DNA of 47,689 nt, taken from contig JACQZJ010000042.1 in assembly GCA_016213895.1 (NCBI GenBank), forward strand, positions 1-47,689. The letters run 5' to 3'. The position numbers were made by a program, and so were the translations under genes. Below the pieces are notes generated by a model. The model saw nothing but the letters and a program-made list of their open reading frames with translations, had not been told where the DNA came from and searched no databases. Below are positions 2,324-30,932 of the stretch, piece by piece; within the stretch, counting starts at the first letter, position 1; the number at the start of each line of letters is the position of its first letter. Source of the DNA: Planctomycetota bacterium (GTDB lineage: Bacteria; Planctomycetota; B15-G4; JADJEK01).

Positions 2324-5300
2324 ATGGACGTGAAGACCCTCCTCACCCACGCCGGTTTCGTCCGGGCGCTGGCGCGGAGCCTGGTCCGGGAAGAGAGCGG
2401 CGCGGCGGACGTGGAGCAGCAGACCTGGCTGGCCGCGCTCGAGCATCCGCCCGGACCAGAGAAGCCGCTCCGCGCCTGGCTGGCGCGGGTCGCCCGGAAC
2501 TTCGCGCGCCGCGGCTTCCGCGACGAGACCCGCCGCCGGGCGCGCGAGGCTTCGCTCCCATCCGAGGCCGTGCCGTCGCCCGAGGAGATTCTGGAGCGCG
2601 AGGAGGCGCGTCGGCACATGGTCGAGGCCCTGCTCGACCTGGAGGAGCCATACCGCTCCACGATCCTGCTGCGCTTCTACGAGGACCTGCCGGTCTCGCA
2701 AGTGGCGCTGCGGCTCGGCGTGCCGCGCGCGACGGTCAAGACGCGCATCGCGCGCGGCCTGGCGCGACTGCGCGGCCGCTTGGACGCCCGCTACGGCGGC
2801 GAACGGAAGGGGTGGTGCCTCGCGCTCGCACCTCTTGCGGGGCTCGAGGCCAAAGCGGCCGCTTCGCTGCTCAGCGCAACAACGGGAGCGCTCGCCATGA
2901 CTGCCAAGGTGAAGGTCGCAGGTGCAGCCGTCCTTCTGCTCGGCGGGACGCTCGTCGTGTGGCAAGTCCTTCGCGACGAGCCAGCGTACGAGGTCACGAT
3001 CGCGCACTCGACCGAGCCGCCCGTGTCAGCCGGGAACCCGGTCGAGATCAGCGGCACGACCAACGGCGCCGGCGCGGCCGGGGCGGTCGCCGAGGCTCCT
3101 CCCGCGCCGGACCGGGCGGCCGTTCGCGTCCAGCGCTGCCTCTCCGGCACGGTCAGGGACAGGAGCACGGACGAGCCCGTGCGTGCGTTCGACATCACGG
3201 TCTTCCGTCGCGCGCGCGCGAGGACTTCATCGACCGAGGTCGCCCATCGCACCGTACGCCACGAGGAGGGCTCCTTCTCGATACCCGTGGACGAGGCAGG
3301 CCTGTACTCCATTACAGTGCGGTCGTCGCGCCACCTCCCGCAATCGCTGCGCGACCTGGACGTGCCGGAAGACGGGCTGAGCGGAATCCTGGTCCGTCTC
3401 GATCCGGGCATGGCCGTCATTGGCCGGGTCCTCTGCGGAGAGACGGGGGAACCCGTGCCAGGGGCCATCGTGGCCGCGACCCAGTTTCCCGGCCTGTCGG
3501 ATCTCCTGGGGCTCGTCCTGGGCTTCGACGAGGCCGAAGCGCACGCCACCACGGACGACCAGGGCCGATTCGTTCTGCGAGGACTCAAGCGGCGCCAGCA
3601 GATCGTCGCCGCCTTGCACCCCGAGTTCGCCGAGGGCTTTCGCGAGATCGCGCCCGACCGGCCGGACGCCGGGGACATCCATCTCGGTCGCGGGCATCGG
3701 TTATTCGGCCGCACCCGCACGGACGCGGGCGCGCCCGCCGCCGGAGTCGCGATCCACGTCTCCGGCTCGGGCACGCCGGTAAGCCGCACGGTGCTGACCG
3801 GGGCGGAGGGGGAGTATCGCAGCCCCCCGGTCGCCCCGGGGTGGGTGCACGTGCGGGCCATGCTGCCCACTGCCGCGGGCAACGGTTCGGGCGGGTTCAC
3901 CGAGGAGTGGAAGAGCGTCGAGGTTCTCGATCAGAACGTCGAGGTCGATTTCGGCGTGAGCGTTGAGCACGTCACCTGGCGGGGAAACGTCCTCGACTGC
4001 GACGGCGAGCCGCTGCCCAATGCCCGGCTCTACATCACGCCGCGGGAGGCAGCCCCGCGCGGCCTACCGATCCGCAGAAGGTCGCACTCCGTCGCCTGCG
4101 GCGAGGAAGGCGAGTTCGTGGCGCGGAAGCTCCTGCCAGGCACGTATGGAGTCGAGATCTGGTTCCGGAATCACGCGGAGAAGGTGGACTGGGGGGACAC
4201 CCGCTTTGATGCGCCCGGCACTGTGGAGAGAGATGTCCGCATCTCCGGCGGCCTGATCGCTGGTGTCGTCGTGGATGGCCGCACCGGGACTCCGATCTCG
4301 ACGCCCGATGGAAGCGTGCTGGCCTCGACCGGTATGAGTGACATCCGGGTCTTCATGACCACGATCGGCCCGGGAGGACGGTTCCGCCTGACGGGTCTGC
4401 CGGCCGGCACCTACGGCGTCTCGGCTGCGGTTTCGGGATACCCTGCGGGAAACGTGTCAGGAGTGGTGCTCGAGGAGAGCGAGAAGATCGATGACCTGTG
4501 CATCAAGCTCCTCCCCGGCGGCATCCTCCGGCTGCGCCTCGCCGGGTTCGTGGCCGGGGGCATCGATGAGTACCGTCTCGACGTGAGGGGAGTCGGCTCG
4601 TCCGGGGGGATGTCCGGCTGGCTGGCGCAGGACGGATCCTGTGACAAGGAGGTGCACCTGCGCCCGGGACAGTACCACGCGACCCTCTCCGTTGAGGGCT
4701 GTGGCGTGGCGGAACGTGACCTCGAGATCGTGTGCGGCCAAACGACCGAGCTGCCTATCGGTCCGGAGGACCTGAAGAGCGCGGTGCGGACGTTCGAGGT
4801 CGCCGGCAGCATCGCGCGAGCGGACGGCGTGCCGCTGGCTGGGGCGACGCTCCTCCTCCTGGACAGCGAGGCCGCTCCGAGCGGAGGAGCGCGTGAGATC
4901 ATCAGGTTCGTCGCGGACTCGGACGGTCGTTTCCGGGCCAGCGGGCTGCCGGCCGGATCCTGGTCCGTGCATGCGACCTTCACGCAGGGCGGCGAGTTCG
5001 TCTTTCCAGACTTGACCATCGATCCGGACGGCCCGGATCTCGTCACGCTCGACCTCGTGCTGCCTTCCGGGGAAGTGTCGGGGGCGCTCCGCGACCGGCA
5101 TAGCGGACGGTTCTTCGACGACGGCGGTCCTGTCTGGTGGGTCTTCTTGCGGAGCACTCGGACGGGCGAACAAGTTGCTGCGCTGCAGGGAGGACACAGA
5201 GGACGGCGCTTCATCCTGGTGGGCGTGCCGGAGGGCGAGTACTGGCTCGAGGTCACTGCCGTGGGGTATCAGGACTACCGGTCGGCGGCCTTCACTGTCG

Positions 5301-5599
5301 GGCCGGAGCAGCACCTCGACTTGAAGGACATCGAACTGGACCCTGCTGGAGTCCTCGACCTCGAGGTCGTGGATCAGGACGGGCGGCGCGTCACGGCCTT
5401 CCATGTCGTCTGGGATGGCAAGGAGCTGCCGCATCACCAGTACGTGGAGCGGTCGCTCGGCGTCTTGCGCTGCTCCGGCCTGCCGCTCGGGGAGGTCACG
5501 ATCTGCGTCAGGGCGGAGGGGTTCCTGGACCAGGACGTGACGACTCGCCTCGAACCAGGGCAGCCCGGAAGGGTGAAGGTCGTGCTGGAGCGGCCGTAG
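2324..5599 (+). CDS. Membrane-tethered ECF sigma factor fused to carboxypeptidase-regulatory-like repeats
   Basis: A 1091-residue protein. Residues 1-160 are an ECF sigma factor: region 2 with its WLARVARN segment, a linker, then region 4 (YRSTILLRFYEDLPVSQVA, and an HTH ending in TVKTRIARGLARL). Residues about 197-217 form one transmembrane helix. The rest, predicted outside the cytoplasm, holds about nine beta-sandwich units of the carboxypeptidase-regulatory/CnaB type, each opening with a GxVxD-like strand, at residues near 274, 364, 461, 552, 645, 737, 826, 918 and 1010, a period of about 92. The likely role is transcription control by an outside-facing sensor. Release of the sigma part would need proteolysis or another conformational switch. 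A GGGAG precedes an internal ATG at 2897 just before the helix, so a separate second product is possible but the frame is unbroken. No anti-sigma gene is adjacent. Confidence 0.85.
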   Translation: MDVKTLLTHAGFVRALARSLVREESGAADVEQQTWLAALEHPPGPEKPLRAWLARVARNFARRGFRDETRRRAREASLPSEAVPSPEEILEREEARRHMVEALLDLEEPYRSTILLRFYEDLPVSQVALRLGVPRATVKTRIARGLARLRGRLDARYGGERKGWCLALAPLAGLEAKAAASLLSATTGALAMTAKVKVAGAAVLLLGGTLVVWQVLRDEPAYEVTIAHSTEPPVSAGNPVEISGTTNGAGAAGAVAEAPPAPDRAAVRVQRCLSGTVRDRSTDEPVRAFDITVFRRARARTSSTEVAHRTVRHEEGSFSIPVDEAGLYSITVRSSRHLPQSLRDLDVPEDGLSGILVRLDPGMAVIGRVLCGETGEPVPGAIVAATQFPGLSDLLGLVLGFDEAEAHATTDDQGRFVLRGLKRRQQIVAALHPEFAEGFREIAPDRPDAGDIHLGRGHRLFGRTRTDAGAPAAGVAIHVSGSGTPVSRTVLTGAEGEYRSPPVAPGWVHVRAMLPTAAGNGSGGFTEEWKSVEVLDQNVEVDFGVSVEHVTWRGNVLDCDGEPLPNARLYITPREAAPRGLPIRRRSHSVACGEEGEFVARKLLPGTYGVEIWFRNHAEKVDWGDTRFDAPGTVERDVRISGGLIAGVVVDGRTGTPISTPDGSVLASTGMSDIRVFMTTIGPGGRFRLTGLPAGTYGVSAAVSGYPAGNVSGVVLEESEKIDDLCIKLLPGGILRLRLAGFVAGGIDEYRLDVRGVGSSGGMSGWLAQDGSCDKEVHLRPGQYHATLSVEGCGVAERDLEIVCGQTTELPIGPEDLKSAVRTFEVAGSIARADGVPLAGATLLLLDSEAAPSGGAREIIRFVADSDGRFRASGLPAGSWSVHATFTQGGEFVFPDLTIDPDGPDLVTLDLVLPSGEVSGALRDRHSGRFFDDGGPVWWVFLRSTRTGEQVAALQGGHRGRRFILVGVPEGEYWLEVTAVGYQDYRSAAFTVGPEQHLDLKDIELDPAGVLDLEVVDQDGRRVTAFHVVWDGKELPHHQYVERSLGVLRCSGLPLGEVTICVRAEGFLDQDVTTRLEPGQPGRVKVVLERP

Positions 5600-15727: not shown

Positions 15728-17257
15728 ATGCGCCTCTCCTCAATCGCCGCGTCTTGCCTCTTCGTCTTCCTCGCGACCGACGCGCTCGCGGCCACGATCA
15801 CGGTCAGCAAGGGGGGCCCGATCACCTCCATCCAGGACGGCCTCACCCTCGCCGGCCCGGGCGACACGGTGCTGGTCAAGAAGGGCGTCTACGAGGAAAA
15901 CGTGATCATCGGCCAGGGACGCAACGGTCTCAAGCTGCGCGCGCAGGGCGACGTGACGATCGAGGCGTGCCCGCTGGGCAGCGTGGGGAGCGGGCCGGGA
16001 CTCTCGGTGTGGTCCGAGAAGGTCACGGTCTCCGGGTTCCTCATTCAGAATGCCAGGAACGCGGGAGGCGGCGGCGACAACGCGGTGGTGGTCAATGAGA
16101 ATGGTGTGACCCTCGAGGACATCCGGGTGCGCGGCAGCGGACTGGACGCCATCGTCATCCACGGCGACCAGACGCGCATCGAGCGCTGCACCGTGGCGAG
16201 CATGCCCTGGGGGTACGGCATCAGCGTCTACGGCAACGACGCGCTCGTGAGCAAGACCACGGTCGAGACCGCGGCCGGCACCGGGATCTACGTCAGCGGC
16301 AACGGCGCACGCGTGCTCGGCTGCCGCGTGCGCGGCATCGAGGACGGCTACGGCATCCACGTGGCCGGGCACGGGGGCCGGATCGAGAAGAACACCCTCG
16401 ACGGCATCGACTACGCGGGCATCCTCGTGTACGGGGACTTGATCACCGTGCGCAAGAACAAGGTGCGCGGCGCCACCGAGGAGGGTGTCGATATCGCGGG
16501 GAACGGCGCCGACGTGCGCGAGAACCAGGTGTTCGGGACCAGCGGGGGTGTCACGGTGCTCGGCGACGTCGCGCGCGTGCGCGAGAACGACATCCGCGAC
16601 TGCCACGGGATCGGCATCGACGTCAAGGGCAACGGCCCGACCATCGAGGACAACAAGGTGACGCGCACGGCCGGTTGCTCCATTCGCGCGGAGGGCGACG
16701 GCCCGACCATCGCCGGCAACTCCTGCGTGGACGCGGTCGGCGACTCGGACGGGGTGCTGCTCGTCGGCCCGATCAGCTTCGGCTCCATCACTGACAACAA
16801 GATCACGCGCGCCTCCAACTGCGGGATCAACGTGGACTCGAACTGCTCCAACCTGCAGATCGAGGACAACGTGGTGTTCTGCTCGTGCTTCGACGGGTAT
16901 CCGGCCTTCCTGCTCTATGGCAGCGGCCACGAGGTGACCTGGAACGTCGCCCGGCAGTGCGGCGGAGACGGGTTCCAGATCGGCAGCGCCGGCAGCGGCA
17001 TGCTGCTCGAACACAACAGCGCGCTCGACAACCAGATGGACGGCTTCGACGTGGATTCCGGCTCGGGCAACGACCTGGTGAAGAACACGGCGCGGGACAA
17101 CGGCGCCGAGGGGATCGAGAACAACGGCACCGGCACCACGGTCGTTGGCAACACCATGAAGCACAACCGCATCGACCTGGCGAACAGCGGGACCGGCGCG
17201 GAAAGCAACAACGACTTCAGCACGGGCGGCTGGAGCGTGCCGCCGGAGCTCGACTGA
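15728..17257 (+). CDS. Secreted right-handed parallel beta-helix protein (NosD/PbH1-like)
   Basis: A 509-residue exported protein. ATG 15728 is followed by a clear signal peptide with cleavage near TDALA-A. The rest is a run of about 18 parallel beta-helix coils of roughly 22-24 residues, with the repeating G-I-x-V-x-G-N-G and N-x-V-x-G/N pattern. The opening segment (ITVSKGGPITSIQDGLTLA...GDTVLVKKGVYEENV) is the classic start of DUF1565/NosD-type helices. Such proteins bind or cleave polysaccharides, but no catalytic residues can be assigned. Its 3' end overlaps the end of aroDE on the other strand by 41 bases (17217-17257). Confidence 0.85.
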   Translation: MRLSSIAASCLFVFLATDALAATITVSKGGPITSIQDGLTLAGPGDTVLVKKGVYEENVIIGQGRNGLKLRAQGDVTIEACPLGSVGSGPGLSVWSEKVTVSGFLIQNARNAGGGGDNAVVVNENGVTLEDIRVRGSGLDAIVIHGDQTRIERCTVASMPWGYGISVYGNDALVSKTTVETAAGTGIYVSGNGARVLGCRVRGIEDGYGIHVAGHGGRIEKNTLDGIDYAGILVYGDLITVRKNKVRGATEEGVDIAGNGADVRENQVFGTSGGVTVLGDVARVRENDIRDCHGIGIDVKGNGPTIEDNKVTRTAGCSIRAEGDGPTIAGNSCVDAVGDSDGVLLVGPISFGSITDNKITRASNCGINVDSNCSNLQIEDNVVFCSCFDGYPAFLLYGSGHEVTWNVARQCGGDGFQIGSAGSGMLLEHNSALDNQMDGFDVDSGSGNDLVKNTARDNGAEGIENNGTGTTVVGNTMKHNRIDLANSGTGAESNNDFSTGGWSVPPELD

Positions 17258-18830
17258 GACCGCGCGCGATGCCGGCGACCACGGCGGGCCGCACGCGCCC
17301 CGGGGAGAGGCCGAGGAAGAGAGCCGCCTGGAGCACGGCCTGCTCCGAGAACATGAGCAGGCCCGGGATGGTCCTGCGGCCGGCGCGGCGCGCGGCGAGC
17401 AGGAAGCTGGTCTCGAGCGGCGAGTAGACCAGGTCCGCGGCGAAGCCCTCGCCGGCGAAGTCGAAGGGATCGAGGGGCAGCTCGTTCCCGGGCAGGTCGG
17501 GAACGGCCTTGACCAGAAGGTCGAAGCGGAGCGCTGCGGCTCGCGCCGGCGAGACCGCCTCGACGCCGCGGCCGAGCGAGAGGACCAGTGCGGTCGCCTT
17601 CTCCTGCGAGCGGCCGGTCACGCGCACGCTCACCCCGCGCTCGCAGAGCGCCCAGGACACGGTGCGCGCCGCGCCGCCCGTGCCGTAGACGAGCGCCGTG
17701 CGGATGCCGCCCCTGCCGCGCGAGAAGGCGGCTGCGCCGTCCAGTTCGAGGAGCGCGTCGAGCGACCTGCCGAGCTGCACGTCGAGGGCAGCCTCGGGCC
17801 GCGCGAGCGCCAGGTCGAGCGCCGCGAGGAAACCCGGTGCGTCGGTGCACTCCGCGCGGAAGCTCCCCCCGGGATCAGCAAGCAGCGTATTCGCCACGCC
17901 CGCGCCGCGCGCTTCCTCACCCGCCGAACCGGCGAACGCCAGGGCGCTGGCCTTGAAGGGTGCCGTCACCGAGAGCCCGGCGAGCGGCAGCGAGCGCGCG
18001 ACCTCGGCCACTTGAGCGAAGGAGCCGGCCGAGAGCGCGGTGTAGACAGAGTCGCAGCCCTGGGCCGAGAAGACGCTGTTGTGGGCGCTGGGAGAAAGGG
18101 ACGCGGAGACGTTCCTGCCGGCCACGGCGAAGACCCGCGTGCGCGGGCCAACCTGCTTGGCTCGATGCACCTCGAGCGCTTCCTGCGCCGTGATCTGCCC
18201 GGCCGCGGTCTTGCGCGCCGGGTGGAGGGCCGCGTAGAGGAGCGGCATGCCGAAGAGTCCGGCGAGCGGCCGCAGGTAGCGGCCGGCCTCGCCCATGGCG
18301 ATGGCCGCTACCGGCCGCGAGGCGGCGCTGCCGGCGCTCGCCGCGGATTGCACGAAACGCAGCGCTTCGGCCGGGTCCTCGGCGCTGGCCGCGACCTTGA
18401 CCACGTCCGCGTCCAGGTCGAGGAGCGCCCGGACCCGCTCCGCGCCGTCGCAGGCCGCGGACGGGCCGTGCCAGGACACGATGCGCCGCGCCCGGCCGCG
18501 CCGGAGCGCATCGGCCAGGTCAGACTCGACGTCGATCCAGGCGAAGCCCGCCGCGTCCGCGCGCTCGAGGAGCGCGAGCCGTGCCCGCGAGTCGCCCGCA
18601 AACTCGCCTCCCTCGGCGCTCGTCCTGAGCGTGCAGATGGCCGGGCGGCCGATGGCCCTGGCCAGGGCGGCGAGGTCGACGGCCTGGGGATCCGCGAAGC
18701 GATCGAGGCGCACTTCCAGGAGATCGACCTCGGGCACGAGGGAGCGCGCGTCCCGCGCGGCCGACTCCACGTCGCGGGCGCCGCTGCACCCGACGAGCAG
18801 GGGAGAAGCCGCGTCGCTCCGGCCCGTCAT
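17217..18830 (-). CDS. aroDE: Fused type I 3-dehydroquinate dehydratase / shikimate dehydrogenase
   Basis: A 537-residue bifunctional enzyme for two successive shikimate-pathway steps. Residues 10-225 are the class I dehydratase: EVRLDRF (39-45), the catalytic His121 in VSWHG and Lys145 in DVVKVAA, which forms the Schiff base. Residues 232-530 are shikimate dehydrogenase: the shikimate-binding SLSPSAHN (244-251), catalytic Lys293 in VTAPFK, Asn314, Asp330, and the NADP-binding GTGGAAR (383-389). The same fusion is known from plants, chlamydiae and planctomycetes. It starts inside the stop of the DUF2520 gene (ATGA) and is the last gene of a long minus-strand cluster. All key residues are intact, so both activities are expected. 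Confidence 0.92.
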   Translation of the reverse strand: MTGRSDAASPLLVGCSGARDVESAARDARSLVPEVDLLEVRLDRFADPQAVDLAALARAIGRPAICTLRTSAEGGEFAGDSRARLALLERADAAGFAWIDVESDLADALRRGRARRIVSWHGPSAACDGAERVRALLDLDADVVKVAASAEDPAEALRFVQSAASAGSAASRPVAAIAMGEAGRYLRPLAGLFGMPLLYAALHPARKTAAGQITAQEALEVHRAKQVGPRTRVFAVAGRNVSASLSPSAHNSVFSAQGCDSVYTALSAGSFAQVAEVARSLPLAGLSVTAPFKASALAFAGSAGEEARGAGVANTLLADPGGSFRAECTDAPGFLAALDLALARPEAALDVQLGRSLDALLELDGAAAFSRGRGGIRTALVYGTGGAARTVSWALCERGVSVRVTGRSQEKATALVLSLGRGVEAVSPARAAALRFDLLVKAVPDLPGNELPLDPFDFAGEGFAADLVYSPLETSFLLAARRAGRRTIPGLLMFSEQAVLQAALFLGLSPGRVRPAVVAGIARGLSRAPAARSSRPC

Positions 18831-19902: not shown

Positions 19903-20367
19903 TCAGCTCGCCTCGCGCTCGAGAGGAGGCGGTTCGGGATAGTCCTCGAAATCGTCGAACTCGTCGATGTCCGGCGCCACGTAGTCGGGCGACTTGGACT
20001 TTTCCAGCTCGGCGTAGAACGCCTCGAGGATCGACTGCTCGATGAAGCGCCGGCACCGCGGATTGATGGGATGGGAGATGTCGGTGTGGAGCCGGGCCCG
20101 CCCGCGGCCGTCCGGCCGCGCGCGGTTGGGCGAGAGACGCGACCCGCACTCGTTGCAGTACTTCGCCCTGAGGTGGTTCTTGGTCCCGCACTTCTGACAG
20201 CGATCGGTGAGCTTGCGGCTCGGCATCGCCACGAACGGGCCGTGCGTGCCCTCGATGATCTTGATGTCGCGCACCACGAAGTCGTCGTCGAACGTGATGG
20301 TGCAGAAGGCCTGCAGCTTCTCGCTGCGGTTGTCGACGAGCTTCACACGGACTTCAGAGATCTGCAC
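19903..20367 (-). CDS. spoVG: SpoVG-family RNA/DNA-binding regulator with inserted zinc ribbon
   Basis: A 154-residue protein. Residues 1-53 match SpoVG (MQISEVRVKLV..., then FVVRDIKIIEG, then GPFVAMPSRK), and residues 93-120 match its C-terminal strand and helix (HTDISHPINPRCRRFIEQSI). Between them, where ordinary SpoVG has a short loop, there are about 38 extra residues with CxxC at 57-60 and CxxC at 71-74, a zinc ribbon. The tail (125-154) is acidic. SpoVG proteins are small site-specific nucleic-acid-binding regulators; the ribbon probably changes target recognition. It follows ispE by 30 bases and is likely in the same transcript. This ispE-spoVG order is known in other bacteria as well. 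Confidence 0.88.
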   Translation of the reverse strand: MQISEVRVKLVDNRSEKLQAFCTITFDDDFVVRDIKIIEGTHGPFVAMPSRKLTDRCQKCGTKNHLRAKYCNECGSRLSPNRARPDGRGRARLHTDISHPINPRCRRFIEQSILEAFYAELEKSKSPDYVAPDIDEFDDFEDYPEPPPLEREAS

Positions 20368-20397: not shown

Positions 20398-21285
20398 TCA
20401 GCCGGGCAGGCTTTCGCACAGAAAGATCTCCCCGGCCGCCACAGCCAGGAGCCTGCGCATGACCTCGACGCCCTGGGCGCGGTCCGCCACCGCCGCGAAC
20501 ATCGCGGAACCGCTGCCGGTCACGCAGAAGGGAAGGCCCGTCTCGCGCGACACTCGGTCCTGAAGCGCCGCGAGTTCCGGGAATGCCCGGCGGAAAGGAA
20601 CTGCCAGAGCATTTTGAAACTCCGGCGCACCGCGCCCTATCGGACGATCAAGACTCTTGAGGAACGTTCTTAAGTCGCCCTTAGGTTTTGTCAAGGCTAA
20701 GTTTAGGGTTCCGTACACAACCGCGGTGGAGACGGCGGCCCCCGGATAGAAGAGAACGAAGGTGAAACGGGGAATCGCGCCTGGCACAAGGGCCTCGATA
20801 CGTTCCCCGCGGCCACGCGCCACGGCCGTGCCGCCGGTCAGGAAGAAAGGCACGTCCGAGCCCAGCCCGGCCGCGATCTCTTCGAGTCGCGGCTTGGAGA
20901 AAGGCTCGCCCAAAAGGTGGTTCACTGCCGCGAGCATGGCCCCTGCATCGGCAGAACCGCCTCCCAAACCTGCGCCCAGCGGGATGATTTTCTGCAGATT
21001 CACCGCAAGACCAGAGCGCGTGTTCAGAGCAGAGAACAGGGCCTCGGCCGCGCGCACCACCAGGTTCGTGTCGTCCGCCGGGCAGGGGCGCCCCGACACC
21101 GCGAAGCGCAGCTCCTCTCCCGGGACGCGCTCGACCGTGAGCACGTCGCACAGGTCGATCGCGTGCATCACGGTCTCGATCTCGTGGAAGCCGTCGGGCC
21201 TCTTGCCGAGAACCTCGAGGTAGAGGTTGAGCTTGGCCGGCGCGCGCAGCACGACGCGATCGCGGCTCTTCTCCGCGAAGATCAT
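20398..21285 (-). CDS. ispE: 4-diphosphocytidyl-2-C-methyl-D-erythritol kinase
   Basis: A 295-residue GHMP kinase of the non-mevalonate isoprenoid pathway. The N-terminal substrate motif is APAKLNLYLEVLGKRPDGFHEI, the ATP loop is PLGAGLGGGSADAG, and the C-terminal GSGSAMFA motif of the family is present. It starts inside the stop codon of panC (ATGA). Codons for roughly residues 185-235 (nucleotides about 20585-20730) are unusually AT-rich for this genome, with CTA, TTA, AGA, ATA, AAA and AGT clustered. The same patch contains TTGACA on the minus strand at 20694-20689. The protein itself looks complete and functional. Confidence 0.92.
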   Translation of the reverse strand: MIFAEKSRDRVVLRAPAKLNLYLEVLGKRPDGFHEIETVMHAIDLCDVLTVERVPGEELRFAVSGRPCPADDTNLVVRAAEALFSALNTRSGLAVNLQKIIPLGAGLGGGSADAGAMLAAVNHLLGEPFSKPRLEEIAAGLGSDVPFFLTGGTAVARGRGERIEALVPGAIPRFTFVLFYPGAAVSTAVVYGTLNLALTKPKGDLRTFLKSLDRPIGRGAPEFQNALAVPFRRAFPELAALQDRVSRETGLPFCVTGSGSAMFAAVADRAQGVEVMRRLLAVAAGEIFLCESLPG

Positions 21286-22121
21286 CCGGCCGGCGGCCCG
21301 AGCAGGGCGTTGTCGATGAGGCGCGTCCCCTCCACGCGCGCGGCGACGAGCAGGAGACCGGAGGGCTCGCAGCGCTCGAGGTCAGCGAGCGTCTGCGGAT
21401 CGACCAGGGCCGCGTAGTCGATGGACAGGCCGCGCGTCTCCTCCAGCTCGCGGCGCGCCCGAGCAAGCAGCGCCGCCGCGCTCCGCTCGCCGCTCGCGTA
21501 CTCCGCCTGGGCCGCCGCGAGCGCGCGGCTCAAGGCCAGCGCGCGCCCGCGGCCCTTCCTACTACTCATGGCCAGTCCGTCCGGTTCGCGCATGGTCGGA
21601 CAGACGACGATCTCCAAGGGCATATTGAGGTCTGCCACCATCCGGCGGATCACCAGGGCCTGCTGGGCGTCTTTCTGGCCGAAGAAGGCCACGTCGGGCT
21701 GGACGACGTGCAAGAGCTTGGCGACCACGGTGAGTACGCCGCGGAAGTGGCCGGGGCGCAGCGCGCCCTCGAAGCGGGCGGAGAGCCGCTCGTTGACGAC
21801 GTGCGTGGCGAAGCCTTGCGGATAGACCTCCTGAGCGCTGGCGCTGAAGATGGCGTCGCAGCCCACGGCGGCGAGCTTCTCGCGGTCTCCCTCGAGGTCG
21901 CGCGGGTAGCGCTCCAGGTCCTCGCCCGGGCCGAACTGCAGTGGATTGACGAAGATCGAGACCACGACGCGCGCGCAGCGCGCGCGCGCGGCCTTGACCA
22001 GCGACAGGTGCCCCTCGTGCAGGGCGCCCATGGTCGGGACGAAGCCGAGCGCCGCCCCCGCGCCGCGCCACTCCCGCGCGAGGCGCGTCATCTCGCGGCA
22101 GCCGCGCACGATCGGGATCAT
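21282..22121 (-). CDS. panC: Pantothenate synthetase
   Basis: A 279-residue enzyme that joins pantoate and beta-alanine with ATP to make pantothenate. Motifs in order: PTMGALHEGHLSLV (HxGH-type nucleotide site), IFVNPLQFGPGEDLERYPR, the FGQKDAQQ loop, then MSSRKGR, the family KMSKS-like loop with Lys in place of the more usual Asn. ATG 22121 is chosen because the family begins there; the reading frame stays open much further upstream without homology. It starts 5 bases after the pssA-folK stop and overlaps ispE by ATGA. panB and panD are not in the window. Confidence 0.93.
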   Translation of the reverse strand: MIPIVRGCREMTRLAREWRGAGAALGFVPTMGALHEGHLSLVKAARARCARVVVSIFVNPLQFGPGEDLERYPRDLEGDREKLAAVGCDAIFSASAQEVYPQGFATHVVNERLSARFEGALRPGHFRGVLTVVAKLLHVVQPDVAFFGQKDAQQALVIRRMVADLNMPLEIVVCPTMREPDGLAMSSRKGRGRALALSRALAAAQAEYASGERSAAALLARARRELEETRGLSIDYAALVDPQTLADLERCEPSGLLLVAARVEGTRLIDNALLGPPAG

Positions 22122-22126
22122 GCTTC

Positions 22127-23431
22127 CTAGCGCGCGCGCTGCTCGATGAGCAGCTCGCGGATCGTCTTGCCCGTCACCGGATCGACCATGTCCGGCGCCA
22201 CGGCGGCGGCCGGCTCGAGGACGAAGCCGCGCTCGCGGTAGCGCGGGTGGGGGAGGGTCAGGTCGCGCGTCTCGCAGATGGTGCGCCCATGCAGGATGAG
22301 GTCGAGGTCGAGCACGCGCGGGCCGTTCTTGATCGAGCGGTCGCGCCCGCGCCGCGCCTCGATCTTGAGCAGCTCGCGCAGCAGCTCCTCGGGCGGAAGC
22401 GCGGTGTCGAGCAGCGCCACGCCGTTCAGGAAGGGCCGCTGCGCCGGCCCGCCGACCGGCTCGGTCTCGACCAGCTCGGACACCGCCACGACCTCGGTGC
22501 CGCGCAGGCGGCGCAGCTGCCCGAGGGCGAAGCGAATGTGCGCCTCGCGGTCGCCCAGGTTGGAGCCGAGGGCGACGAGCGCCTCTGCTCCCGGCTCGTC
22601 GCCGCCGGCGCGCGCCTCGGCCGCGTGGGGCGCGAAGATGCGCCGGCCGGCCATGCGCTCGGCGAGCGCCAGGAGCGGCCCGGCCACGGCGTAGCCCGCG
22701 AAGCAGAGGAAGAAGAGCGTCTCGTGATAGGTGGCCGCGAGGAAGAGGATCACGAGGATGACCACGAGGTGCAGGAAGGGACGCCGCCCGCGGAACCAGC
22801 GGCTCACCAGGTGGACGTACTCCACGCGCGAGATCATCATGCCGCCGAGCAGCGGCAGCATCCACAAGTAGGCGCGCACCAGCGCGAGCCGCGTCTCGCT
22901 GCTCATGCCCGCGAGCGGCGACTCGTTCTCGAAGAGCAGGAAGGCCGAGGAGGCGACCACGCCGGCGGCCGCGGGCGTGGGCAGCCCGCAGAACCTCTCG
23001 TGGGACTGGTCGTCCTCGTCTGTCTCGAGCGTGAAGCGCGCCAGGCGCAGCGCGGCGCAGATCACGTAGAGCGCGCACAAGAGCAGCACGAACTTCTGGC
23101 GGTAGGGCACGCCCGCGCTGGTCAGCGTGTATTCGTACACCACCTTGACCAGGAAGGCGGGCGCCACGCCGAAGGTGATCAGGTCGGTGAGGGAGTCGAG
23201 CTGCGCGCCGAAGTCGGATGACTGCTTGGTCAGGCGGGCGATGCGGCCGTCGAGCGCGTCGAAGAGCATGGCCAGGAGGATCATCCAGGAGGCCCAGAGG
23301 ACGTTGTGCTCGAAGAGCGCGGGCCGGAGCAGCGCGTCGGCGATCTTGGCGATGGCCAGGAAGCCGCAGAACGTGTTGCCGAGGGTGCAGAGCGTCGGCA
23401 GGATGGCAACGGGTTTGAAGCGGGGCATCAT
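22127..23431 (-). CDS. pssA-folK: Fusion of phosphatidylserine synthase (PssA) and HPPK (FolK)
   Basis: A single 434-codon frame with two unrelated enzymes. Residues 1-260 are a CDP-alcohol phosphatidyltransferase of the PssA type: about eight membrane helices and the full motif with Asp58, Asp61-Gly62, Ala65-Arg66, Gly75, Asp79 and Asp83. Residues 285-434 are 6-hydroxymethyl-7,8-dihydropterin pyrophosphokinase: VALGSNLGDREAHI, then NGPRVLDLDLILHG with its metal-binding aspartates, then LPHPRYRERGFVL. There is no stop between them, only a charged linker of about 25 residues. An internal ATG at 22654 could start a separate FolK but has no good ribosome site. psd lies upstream, so phosphatidylserine made here would feed Psd. 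FolK would feed FolP encoded at 28640. Confidence 0.85.
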   Translation of the reverse strand: MMPRFKPVAILPTLCTLGNTFCGFLAIAKIADALLRPALFEHNVLWASWMILLAMLFDALDGRIARLTKQSSDFGAQLDSLTDLITFGVAPAFLVKVVYEYTLTSAGVPYRQKFVLLLCALYVICAALRLARFTLETDEDDQSHERFCGLPTPAAAGVVASSAFLLFENESPLAGMSSETRLALVRAYLWMLPLLGGMMISRVEYVHLVSRWFRGRRPFLHLVVILVILFLAATYHETLFFLCFAGYAVAGPLLALAERMAGRRIFAPHAAEARAGGDEPGAEALVALGSNLGDREAHIRFALGQLRRLRGTEVVAVSELVETEPVGGPAQRPFLNGVALLDTALPPEELLRELLKIEARRGRDRSIKNGPRVLDLDLILHGRTICETRDLTLPHPRYRERGFVLEPAAAVAPDMVDPVTGKTIRELLIEQRAR

Positions 23432-23540
23432 TCTCGTGATGGGCGGCCGCGCCGCGCGCCAGTGTCCTCGGGCATGGTTCGACGGCCTTTCAGCGTACTG
23501 GCCGGCGCACGGAATATCCACGCGGCCCTGCCGGACGGCG

Positions 23541-24206
23541 TTATCGGCCGGCTGCGGCGCGGAACAGGACCGTCTCTCCGGCCTTCACCTTCTCCTTCAG
23601 GGATGCGGCGGGATGGAACCCGCTGCCCGCGGGAACGATCACCTCGGCGTAAGAGCCGAACTTCATCATGCCGATGCGCTGGCCGCGCTCGACGCGGTCG
23701 CCCTCGCGCACGGCAAGCACCAGGCGCCTGGCGATGAGCCCGGCGACCTGGCGGAAGAGGATCCTCTGGCCATCGTCCAGGCGGATGCCGACGGCGTTGC
23801 ACTCGTTCTCGGCCGAAGAGCGCGCGTCGCGCGCGTCGCGGAAGCGGCCGGGCGTGTAGCGCACCATCTCGACCACGCCGGCAGCCGGGGCGCGGTTCAC
23901 GTGCACGTCCAGGACCGAGAGGAACACGCCCACGCGCGTTCCCCTGCCCGCGAGGTAGAGCGGCTCTTCCACGTCGAGGACGTTTTGCACCACGCCGTCG
24001 GCCGGGCTGACCAGGAGGCCCGCGTCCGCCGGGATGCTCCGTTCCGGATCGCGGAAGAACCAGAGGACGAAGAGGGCGAGCGCGCAGAGCGGCAGGCCCG
24101 CCCACCACGCGGCGCGGGCGAGGAGAAACAAACCCGCGGCGAGCGGCAGGGCTCCGTAGAGGACGATCTGGACGGTGCCGTAGTGCGTGAGCGGAAGGCG
24201 CGCCAT
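23541..24206 (-). CDS. psd: Phosphatidylserine decarboxylase proenzyme
   Basis: A 221-residue enzyme of the short Psd class. AGGAG lies 8 bases before ATG 24206. Two membrane helices occupy residues 10-50. The self-cleavage site is FGSY: Gly184-Ser185, where Ser185 becomes the pyruvoyl group. Other conserved points are SPADG (Asp70), the DVHVNRAP segment (His102) and the NECNAVGI strand. It converts phosphatidylserine to phosphatidylethanolamine at the inner membrane and is the natural partner of the PssA part of the next gene, 109 bases downstream. It appears to be the first gene of the minus-strand cluster that runs to aroDE. Confidence 0.93.
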   Translation of the reverse strand: MARLPLTHYGTVQIVLYGALPLAAGLFLLARAAWWAGLPLCALALFVLWFFRDPERSIPADAGLLVSPADGVVQNVLDVEEPLYLAGRGTRVGVFLSVLDVHVNRAPAAGVVEMVRYTPGRFRDARDARSSAENECNAVGIRLDDGQRILFRQVAGLIARRLVLAVREGDRVERGQRIGMMKFGSYAEVIVPAGSGFHPAASLKEKVKAGETVLFRAAAGR

Positions 24207-28414: not shown

Positions 28415-28626
28415 GAGGAAACTCCGAGGTATGCAGACGCCTGGCGCCGGCCGACGTTAATGGTTTCCTGGCCGGGCCGGCCCGATTCTCCCTAGCGCAT
28501 CGCGATCGGGTGGTGACGGATGCGACCGATCCTCCCGCCAGCGAGCGTGTCGCGGCGCGCGCGACGAGCAGCCGCCGATTTCGCGCGGCGGCGGGAGTGG
28601 CGCGTTCGTTTCCTGCCAGGTCGCAC

Positions 28627-28632
28627 TATCAT
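28627..28632 (+). promoter_or_regulatory. Possible -10 element for folP operon, near-leaderless
   Basis: TATCAT lies 7 bases before GTG 28640. With normal -10 to start spacing the transcript would begin at or next to the GTG. TTCGTT at 28605-28610 is a poor -35 candidate at 16 bases. Confidence 0.35.
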
Positions 28633-28639
28633 CGCACCC

Positions 28640-29836
28640 GTGGACCCCGCGGAGCGAACGTACAACCCTCGCGTCGTCGCCGGCACGCTGGCCGGCTTCG
28701 AGGGGTTCAGCCGCTTTCGCTCGGCGTTGTTCGATCCGCTGCGCTCCCTTCTGCCGGTGGCGGTCGAGGTCGAGGCGGTCCCGGCGGAGTTCTCCTCCCT
28801 CTACGCCGACTCCTTCCGCGCCCGCGGCTTCGTGCTCGACGAGCGGCCGCAGGAGCGCGGGCGCATGGTGCTCGCCGGCCCCTTCGATCAGTTCTCGCTC
28901 CTCGCCGGCGTCGAGGAGGAGAGCCCGGCCGGCTTCAAGGAGCTGGCGCACGCCGTGGCCCACGCCGTGGCCTGCCGCTTCATCGAGGAGTTCGAGGTGC
29001 CGGCGCGCAGGCGCATGCTGCGGCTCGGCCGGCGGCCGCTGATCATGGGCGTGCTCAACGTCACGCCCGACTCGTTCTCGGACGGCGGCTGGTTCGCGCA
29101 GCCCGACGAGGCCATCGCGCGCGCCTTCCAGATGGTCGAGGAAGGAGCGGACATCGTCGACGTGGGTGCGGAATCGACCCGGCCGGGCGCCGCTGCGGTG
29201 GAAGCGGAGGAGGAGATCCGGCGCCTGCTGCCGGTCATCAAGGCGCTGGCCGAGCAGCTCCCCGCGCCGCTCTCCCTCGACACCAGGAAGAGCCGCGTGG
29301 CGGAGCGCTTCCTCGACATGGGGGTCGACCTGATCAACGACACCAGCGGCCTCGAGTTCGATGCGCGCATGGCCGAGGTCGCCGCGCGCCGCGGCTGCGT
29401 CCTGGTGATCAATCACATGCGCGGAACTCCGCGCACCATGCAGCAGGCGCCGCGCTACGATGACGTGTCGGCGGAGGTCTGCCGGAGCCTCCGCGAGCGC
29501 CTCGAGCGCGCGCTGCGGGCGGGCGTCTTGGAGGAGAGGGTCATCCTCGATCCGGGCATCGGCTTCGGCAAGCGCGTCGAGGACAACCTCGATCTCCTCG
29601 CCAGGCTCGAGGAGATCAGGTCGCTCGGGCGGCCCATCCTCATCGGCTGCTCGCGCAAGTCGTTCCTAGGCGAGCTGACCGGTCGCGCGTCGGGCGAGCG
29701 GCGCGCGGCCACGACGGCCACGACCGCGCTCGCGGCCCTGCGCGGCGTGAAGATGGTGCGCGTGCACGACGTGCGCGACGCGGTGGACGCGCTCAAGGTG
29801 CTGGACGCGATCGATGAGCGTCATCGAGTGGCATAA
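28640..29836 (+). CDS. folP: Dihydropteroate synthase with N-terminal extension
   Basis: From GTG 28640 the protein has 398 residues; the usual length is about 270-290. The last 270 residues carry all DHPS motifs: IMGVLNVTPDSFSDGG, DVGAESTRPGA, LDTRKS, NDTSG, ILDPGIGFGK and GCSRKSF. The first 130 residues are an extra alpha/beta region not recognised as a known domain. ATG 28520 in the same frame would add 40 Arg-rich residues and is judged unlikely. The enzyme joins DHPPP, made by HPPK, to p-aminobenzoate in folate synthesis. The HPPK is fused to PssA on the other strand. The stop overlaps the cdaA start by 23 bases. Confidence 0.88.
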   Translation: MDPAERTYNPRVVAGTLAGFEGFSRFRSALFDPLRSLLPVAVEVEAVPAEFSSLYADSFRARGFVLDERPQERGRMVLAGPFDQFSLLAGVEEESPAGFKELAHAVAHAVACRFIEEFEVPARRRMLRLGRRPLIMGVLNVTPDSFSDGGWFAQPDEAIARAFQMVEEGADIVDVGAESTRPGAAAVEAEEEIRRLLPVIKALAEQLPAPLSLDTRKSRVAERFLDMGVDLINDTSGLEFDARMAEVAARRGCVLVINHMRGTPRTMQQAPRYDDVSAEVCRSLRERLERALRAGVLEERVILDPGIGFGKRVEDNLDLLARLEEIRSLGRPILIGCSRKSFLGELTGRASGERRAATTATTALAALRGVKMVRVHDVRDAVDALKVLDAIDERHRVA

Positions 29837-30932
29837 GCTCGTCGAGATCCTGATCTTCTGGCTCGGGATCTACCTCATCCTGCGCTCGCTTCGGCGCACG
29901 CGCGGCCTGGGCGTGCTCAAGGGAGGCGTGGCGTTCATCGTCGGCATTTACCTGTTCTCGAAGCTCCTCGAGACCAGGGGCATCGAGATGTCGCGGCTGA
30001 ACTTCGCCATCGAGAACCTGATCACCGTCGCCTTGATCGCCTTCGTCATCATCTTCCAGCCGGAGCTGCGGCGCGGCCTGACGCGCCTCGGCGAGAAGCC
30101 CTTCTCCTGGCTGGCCGGGCCGGCCGCGGGACGGAGCGTTTCGCCCATCGTCGAGGCCGCGGGCCACATGTCGCGGCGCCGCATCGGCGCGCTCATCGCG
30201 ATGGAGCGCAACGTCGGCATCGGCGGCATCATCGAGAGCGGCGTGCCGCTCTCGGCCGAGGTCACGGCTCCCCTGCTCGAGTCGATCTTCTATCCGAACG
30301 CGCCGCTGCACGATGGCGCGGTCGTGGTGCGCGGCTCGCGCGTTGTGGCGGCGCGCTGCCTCCTGCCCCTGTCCGACAGCCCGGAGCTGGGACCGGAGGT
30401 GGGCACGCGCCATCGCGCCGCGGTCGGCCTCACCGAGGAGACCGACTCCATCGTCGTCGTCGTGTCGGAGCAGACGGGCCGCATCTCGCTGGCGCACTAC
30501 GGCGCGATCCGGCCGATGCGCGACATGCGCGAGCTGGAGGATGCCATCACCAGGATCCTGGACGGCGGGCGGCTGGAGCCGGTGGCGAGCGAGCGCTCGG
30601 CGGAGCATCAGGAAGGGAAGAGCGGTTTTTGGAGCAAGTCCGGGGTCCTGGTGGATGGCGAGCGCGACTCTGCCGCGCCGGCGATGATCCGGGACCGCGC
30701 CGGCGCGGCCGGCGAGAGGACGGTGAGGGTCGAGCGGCCTGTGCGGGACACAGCCCGCGGGCGGCGACGCGGCGGATCCTGGCGCAGCCACGCAGCAGGC
30801 CGCCCGCTCCAAGGTCGAGGTGCGGAGCGCGCGGACGGATGTCCCCGCGGGTTCGGAGGACAAGGAGGCCGGGCCGGCGCCCGCGTAGGTGAGGCGTGTT
30901 GTCCAGGGCAAGGCTGTTGTGGGCTCGTTTGA
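29814..30932 (+). CDS. cdaA: Diadenylate cyclase CdaA, tail probably frameshifted
   Basis: A membrane diadenylate cyclase that makes c-di-AMP from two ATP. Three membrane helices occupy about residues 10-85. The DAC domain follows with DGA at 167-169 and RHR at 199-201, both intact. The catalytic part ends near residue 255. The tail read in frame is a Gly/Arg-rich string of the kind produced by off-frame reading of GC-rich DNA and runs 37 bases into the next gene. In the +1 frame, from about 30748, an acidic, Gln/Ala-rich tail ends at TAG 30886-30888, just before the ybbR start. A one-base indel near 30727-30750 is therefore likely and would not touch catalysis. The cdaA-cdaR-glmM order is conserved widely. 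Confidence 0.9.
   Translation: MSVIEWHKLVEILIFWLGIYLILRSLRRTRGLGVLKGGVAFIVGIYLFSKLLETRGIEMSRLNFAIENLITVALIAFVIIFQPELRRGLTRLGEKPFSWLAGPAAGRSVSPIVEAAGHMSRRRIGALIAMERNVGIGGIIESGVPLSAEVTAPLLESIFYPNAPLHDGAVVVRGSRVVAARCLLPLSDSPELGPEVGTRHRAAVGLTEETDSIVVVVSEQTGRISLAHYGAIRPMRDMRELEDAITRILDGGRLEPVASERSAEHQEGKSGFWSKSGVLVDGERDSAAPAMIRDRAGAAGERTVRVERPVRDTARGRRRGGSWRSHAAGRPLQGRGAERADGCPRGFGGQGGRAGARVGEACCPGQGCCGLV

Follow-up and report, generated by a model that had tools for sequence, protein, structure and literature searches.

HPPK (FolK) is known to occur fused to other enzymes, and the fusions described in PMC4224340, FolK-FolP and FolB-FolK-FolP, have folate enzymes as partners. In the HPPK-DHPS proteins (FolK-FolP), such as those of Francisella (8sl9) and yeast (Fol1, 2bmb), the partner is a soluble enzyme that follows HPPK in folate synthesis. 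In the DHNA-HPPK protein (FolB-FolK) of Streptococcus pneumoniae (2cg8), HPPK is the C-terminal domain and its partner acts directly before it in folate synthesis.

Here we describe a gene from a Planctomycetota bacterium, located in a stretch of 47,689 nucleotides (hereafter, the window), in which HPPK is fused in frame to the phosphatidylserine synthase PssA. As in the HPPK-DHPS proteins, HPPK is joined to another enzyme, and their HPPK domain matches that of the fused protein by both sequence and fold. The C-terminal position of HPPK differs from that in the HPPK-DHPS proteins and is that of FolB-FolK 2cg8, which is also the best sequence match in the PDB. The partner, however, is a membrane lipid enzyme of an unrelated pathway and not a neighbouring folate enzyme as in the FolB-FolK and FolK-FolP fusions, and no FolB or FolP domain was detected by Pfam in the fused protein. 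The PssA half matches the phosphatidylserine synthases 7b1k and 7pow by sequence, and 7pow also by fold, but these lack an appended HPPK. The literature searched, in which few subscription journals were covered, contained nothing relevant on the PssA-FolK pairing. The known fusion partners of HPPK are hereby extended beyond folate synthesis, to an enzyme of the membrane.

A single frame encodes complete PssA and HPPK

The fused gene occupies positions 22127-23431 of the minus strand, where an uninterrupted run of 434 codons leads from the ATG at 23431 to the TAG at 22129-22127; the plus strand of the same interval is interrupted by a stop. The first-pass annotation, which named no strand, had read this frame as a PssA joined without a stop to a complete HPPK, and profile searches confirmed it, since both domains pass curated cut-offs. 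Indeed, the Pfam matches are CDP-OH_P_transf (residues 10-173, E 9.5e-21) and HPPK (residues 286-413, E 4.7e-35), and the NCBIfam scores are 115.1 bits for pssA (TIGR00473, cut-off 107) and 130.6 bits for folK (TIGR01498, cut-off 54.1). Taking the motifs, the alignment and the predicted structure together, the protein divides into a PssA part (residues 1-262, 22646-23431), a linker (residues 263-282, 22586-22645) and an HPPK part (residues 283-434 and the stop, 22127-22585). In the PssA part the motif D58xxDGxxARx8GxxxDxxxD83 (residues 58-83), the signature of CDP-alcohol phosphatidyltransferases, is intact. In the HPPK part the active-site residues of GRxR, GPR and DxD (R363, R365, R372, D375 and D377) do not vary among the six fused proteins.

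The exact N-terminus of the fused protein is less certain. Upstream of the ATG at 23431 the frame remains open up to a GTG at 23521, and the same-genus copy has an in-frame ATG further upstream. A frame of 15 codons at 23428-23475 of the minus strand ends with a TGA that overlaps the ATG of the fused gene; the same-genus ATG matching this frame is in frame with pssA, which suggests that the true start may lie upstream.

AlphaFold, supplied with an alignment of 83 sequences, modelled the fused protein with a mean pLDDT of 93.4 and a pTM of 0.82; confidence is low (about 60) only at the linker, which is mostly coil. The model thus predicts two well-folded domains connected by a loose linker. In Foldseek comparisons it matched HPPK crystal structures (5etq, TM 0.91 by target) and the phosphatidylserine synthase 7pow (TM 0.76). 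Both enzyme activities are predicted, as is the membrane topology of the fused protein, in which HPPK would lie on the cytosolic side. Proteolytic cleavage may occur within the loose linker.

The first-pass annotation had also considered that a separate FolK could be translated from an internal ATG at 22652-22654 of the minus strand (codon 260), next to the full-length fusion. Such an ATG does exist, and it is also found at this position in two other members of the same family of fused genes (G001 and G003, see below). Nevertheless, inspection of the region revealed no clear Shine-Dalgarno sequence before 22654, and in the alignment G002 has Ser and G029 has Ala in place of the methionine. Moreover, codon 260 falls at the end of a long helix predicted for PssA (H236-260), and between 22654 and the HPPK motif the window offers no further ATG, GTG or TTG. 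The production of two proteins from this gene is therefore improbable, and the start at 22654 was not retained. In G002, on the other hand, a GTG is found six codons ahead of the HPPK motif and is preceded, at a distance of 11 bases, by a GGAGG, so that this member of the family may also make free FolK.

The fused gene joins two common neighbourhoods

On the minus strand the gene order is psd, pssA-folK, panC, ispE and a SpoVG-like gene. The phosphatidylserine decarboxylase gene psd (23541-24206, with a putative start codon) lies directly upstream, which suggests serine as the acceptor of PssA. Downstream, the ATG of panC (pantoate-beta-alanine ligase, 21282-22121) is located 5 bases after the stop of the fused gene, and the start of ispE (20398-21285) overlaps the stop of panC by 4 bases. 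Assignments rest on Pfam and NCBIfam for psd and panC and on NCBIfam for ispE. In the SpoVG-like gene (19906-20367), the profile match of the SpoVG domain skirts a zinc-ribbon-like stretch at residues 56-79.

Of the 45 non-duplicate loci with numbers up to L047, 40 have panC and 34 have psd within the fetched stretch. The fused gene thus sits at the junction of a psd-pssA and a folK-panC neighbourhood, the latter being common elsewhere, for example in E. coli. In its own genome, a draft of 5.50 Mb in 218 contigs and 95.5% complete, of which the window is one contig (C182), the fused protein matches only itself, and no second pssA or folK was detected. The window also contains, at 29042-29809 of the plus strand, the gene of the next folate enzyme, dihydropteroate synthase (DHPS, folP); in the region 28520-30929 of this strand, the end of folP is overlapped by the frame of the gene that comes after it, a diadenylate cyclase (DAC, CdaA-like).

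Fused, overlapping and abutting pairs coexist in the phylum

According to the first-pass annotation, its reading would be refuted by relatives in which pssA and folK are always separate. A search for the same architecture among 58 relatives and 392 genomes of the phylum showed that most relatives do keep the two genes apart, but it recovered stop-free two-domain fusions in at least six genomes. The family of the window (f1) carries the fusion in all four genomes examined, which belong to three genera and share 64-92% identity: the window itself (G000), G001 (92% identical), G002, in which the contig ends within the 5' part of the fused gene, and G003. The two other fusions, G029 and G024, belong to different orders, each being the sole genome of its order examined. 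A contig scan gave as its only match a same-genus record, DYIW01000008.1, labelled by its depositor Phycisphaera mikurensis (Planctomycetota).

We then compared 159 non-duplicate pssA loci, which are those listed and fetched and not a random sample. Six are fused. In 98 others, pssA is followed on its strand by a separate folK, and 55 have no folK within the fetched stretch, though in some of these the contig or the stretch ended. The 98 separate pairs (76 in different reading frames and 22 in the same one) include an ambiguous locus, G094, where the frame runs from PssA into a broken HPPK; it was left undecided because the neighbouring panC is broken too. In 32 of these pairs the genes overlap by 4 bases and in seven by 1 base; in a further 43 the first folK start lies 0-30 bases after the pssA stop, seven are arranged otherwise and nine have no start by the rule of our script. 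A single phylum thus displays a graded series from abutting through overlapping to fused genes, the last state having been reached more than once. PMC10666635 reports translational coupling for gene pairs with an overlap of 4 bases or of 1; if this applies here, fusion may change the stoichiometry of the two enzymes little.

The fusion arose more than once

A tree was built from 103 concatenated PssA and FolK rows, corresponding to the 104 pairs less G094. It requires three changes of state, and its starred branches force this number. Topologies were further tested on a subset of 39 rows of our own choice, under a simpler model with the mixture switched off. In this subset, a single origin of all six fusions was rejected (one-clade constraint, p-AU 0.006), whereas a clade composed of f1 and G029 was not (p-AU 0.43). 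Two independent fusions are therefore supported, while a third is indicated by parsimony only.

The nine relatives of the same order that lie next to f1 in the tree (families f2 and f3) all have pssA and folK in different frames (9/9), so that the f1 fusion needed an insertion or deletion and not only a lost stop. Simple stop-codon loss was accordingly rejected, and the recent event of this kind suggested in the first-pass annotation is also wrong as to age, the fusion being common to all four f1 genomes down to 64% identity. In these separate relatives PssA extends only a little beyond its last hydrophobic stretch, and its tail ends at the position of the f1 linker. Most likely, the fusion arose from an operon pair whose genes already lay end to end.

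Both domains are constrained whereas the linker is free

Comparison of the window with the same-genus copy gave a dN/dS of about 0.25 in PssA (0.041/0.161) and of 0.14 in HPPK (0.020/0.145). These low values indicate purifying selection, that is, both domains have been kept. By contrast, the linker of 20 residues has a ratio of about 1 (0.31/0.29), consistent with a free spacer, although the linker is open and in frame in every member of f1.

A tethered HPPK as a probable by-product of gene order

With its single frame, complete domains, sole detected copies of both enzymes, family-wide conservation and purifying selection on both domains, the gene very probably encodes a genuine bifunctional protein, in which a complete HPPK is tethered to a membrane PssA as a by-product of gene order. 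Among the options of the first-pass annotation, a membrane-anchored HPPK thus fits best, whereas simple stop-codon loss is rejected and the internal start is unlikely. The N-terminal part would be a polytopic membrane PssA converting CDP-diacylglycerol and serine into phosphatidylserine, which would serve as substrate for the product of the adjacent psd gene upstream. The C-terminal part would act in the cytosol, pyrophosphorylating 6-hydroxymethyl-dihydropterin for folate, and the flexible linker of about 20 residues would hold it at the membrane. Such a protein probably appeared once two neighbouring genes of the conserved psd-pssA-folK-panC cluster, which often overlap by 4 bases, had entered the same reading frame, the old PssA tail becoming the linker. 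The joining would have no dedicated metabolic purpose and would provide, at most, a fixed 1:1 synthesis of the two enzymes; its effect on the biology of these bacteria is probably small.

Alternatively, HPPK could have been placed at the membrane to respond to phospholipid synthesis or to be coordinated with it. At least two independent fusions speak for such a coupling, as does the fact that neither enzyme was detected in the genome apart from the fused protein. However, most relatives manage without fusion, the PssA and HPPK reactions share no metabolite, the linker is unconstrained and chance fusion is easy since the genes abut, so that we consider a purposeful coupling very unlikely. Its more specific form, in which fusion was selected independently in at least two lineages because a membrane-tethered HPPK couples the supply of folate (one-carbon units) to phospholipid synthesis, appears highly doubtful. 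More generally, the by-product reading warns that a domain fusion ('Rosetta stone') need not imply a functional link. Finally, a sequencing or assembly artefact, in which a stop or frameshift separating the two genes was lost, is hardly credible, and was rejected, since the junction is open with the linkers in frame throughout the four f1 genomes and their three genera, even though these are draft assemblies and G094 (L184, minus strand), with its broken downstream frames, shows an apparent fusion probably due to indel errors.

Two other composite frames were observed in the window. At 2324-5596 of the plus strand, a frame of 1091 aa combines seven carboxypeptidase-regulatory-like repeats with an ECF-type sigma factor, whose regions 2 and 4 fall within residues 8-150. 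At 17220-18830 of the minus strand, a type I 3-dehydroquinase and the N-terminal domain of shikimate dehydrogenase share one frame, a fusion of the AroD-AroE type, which is known elsewhere.
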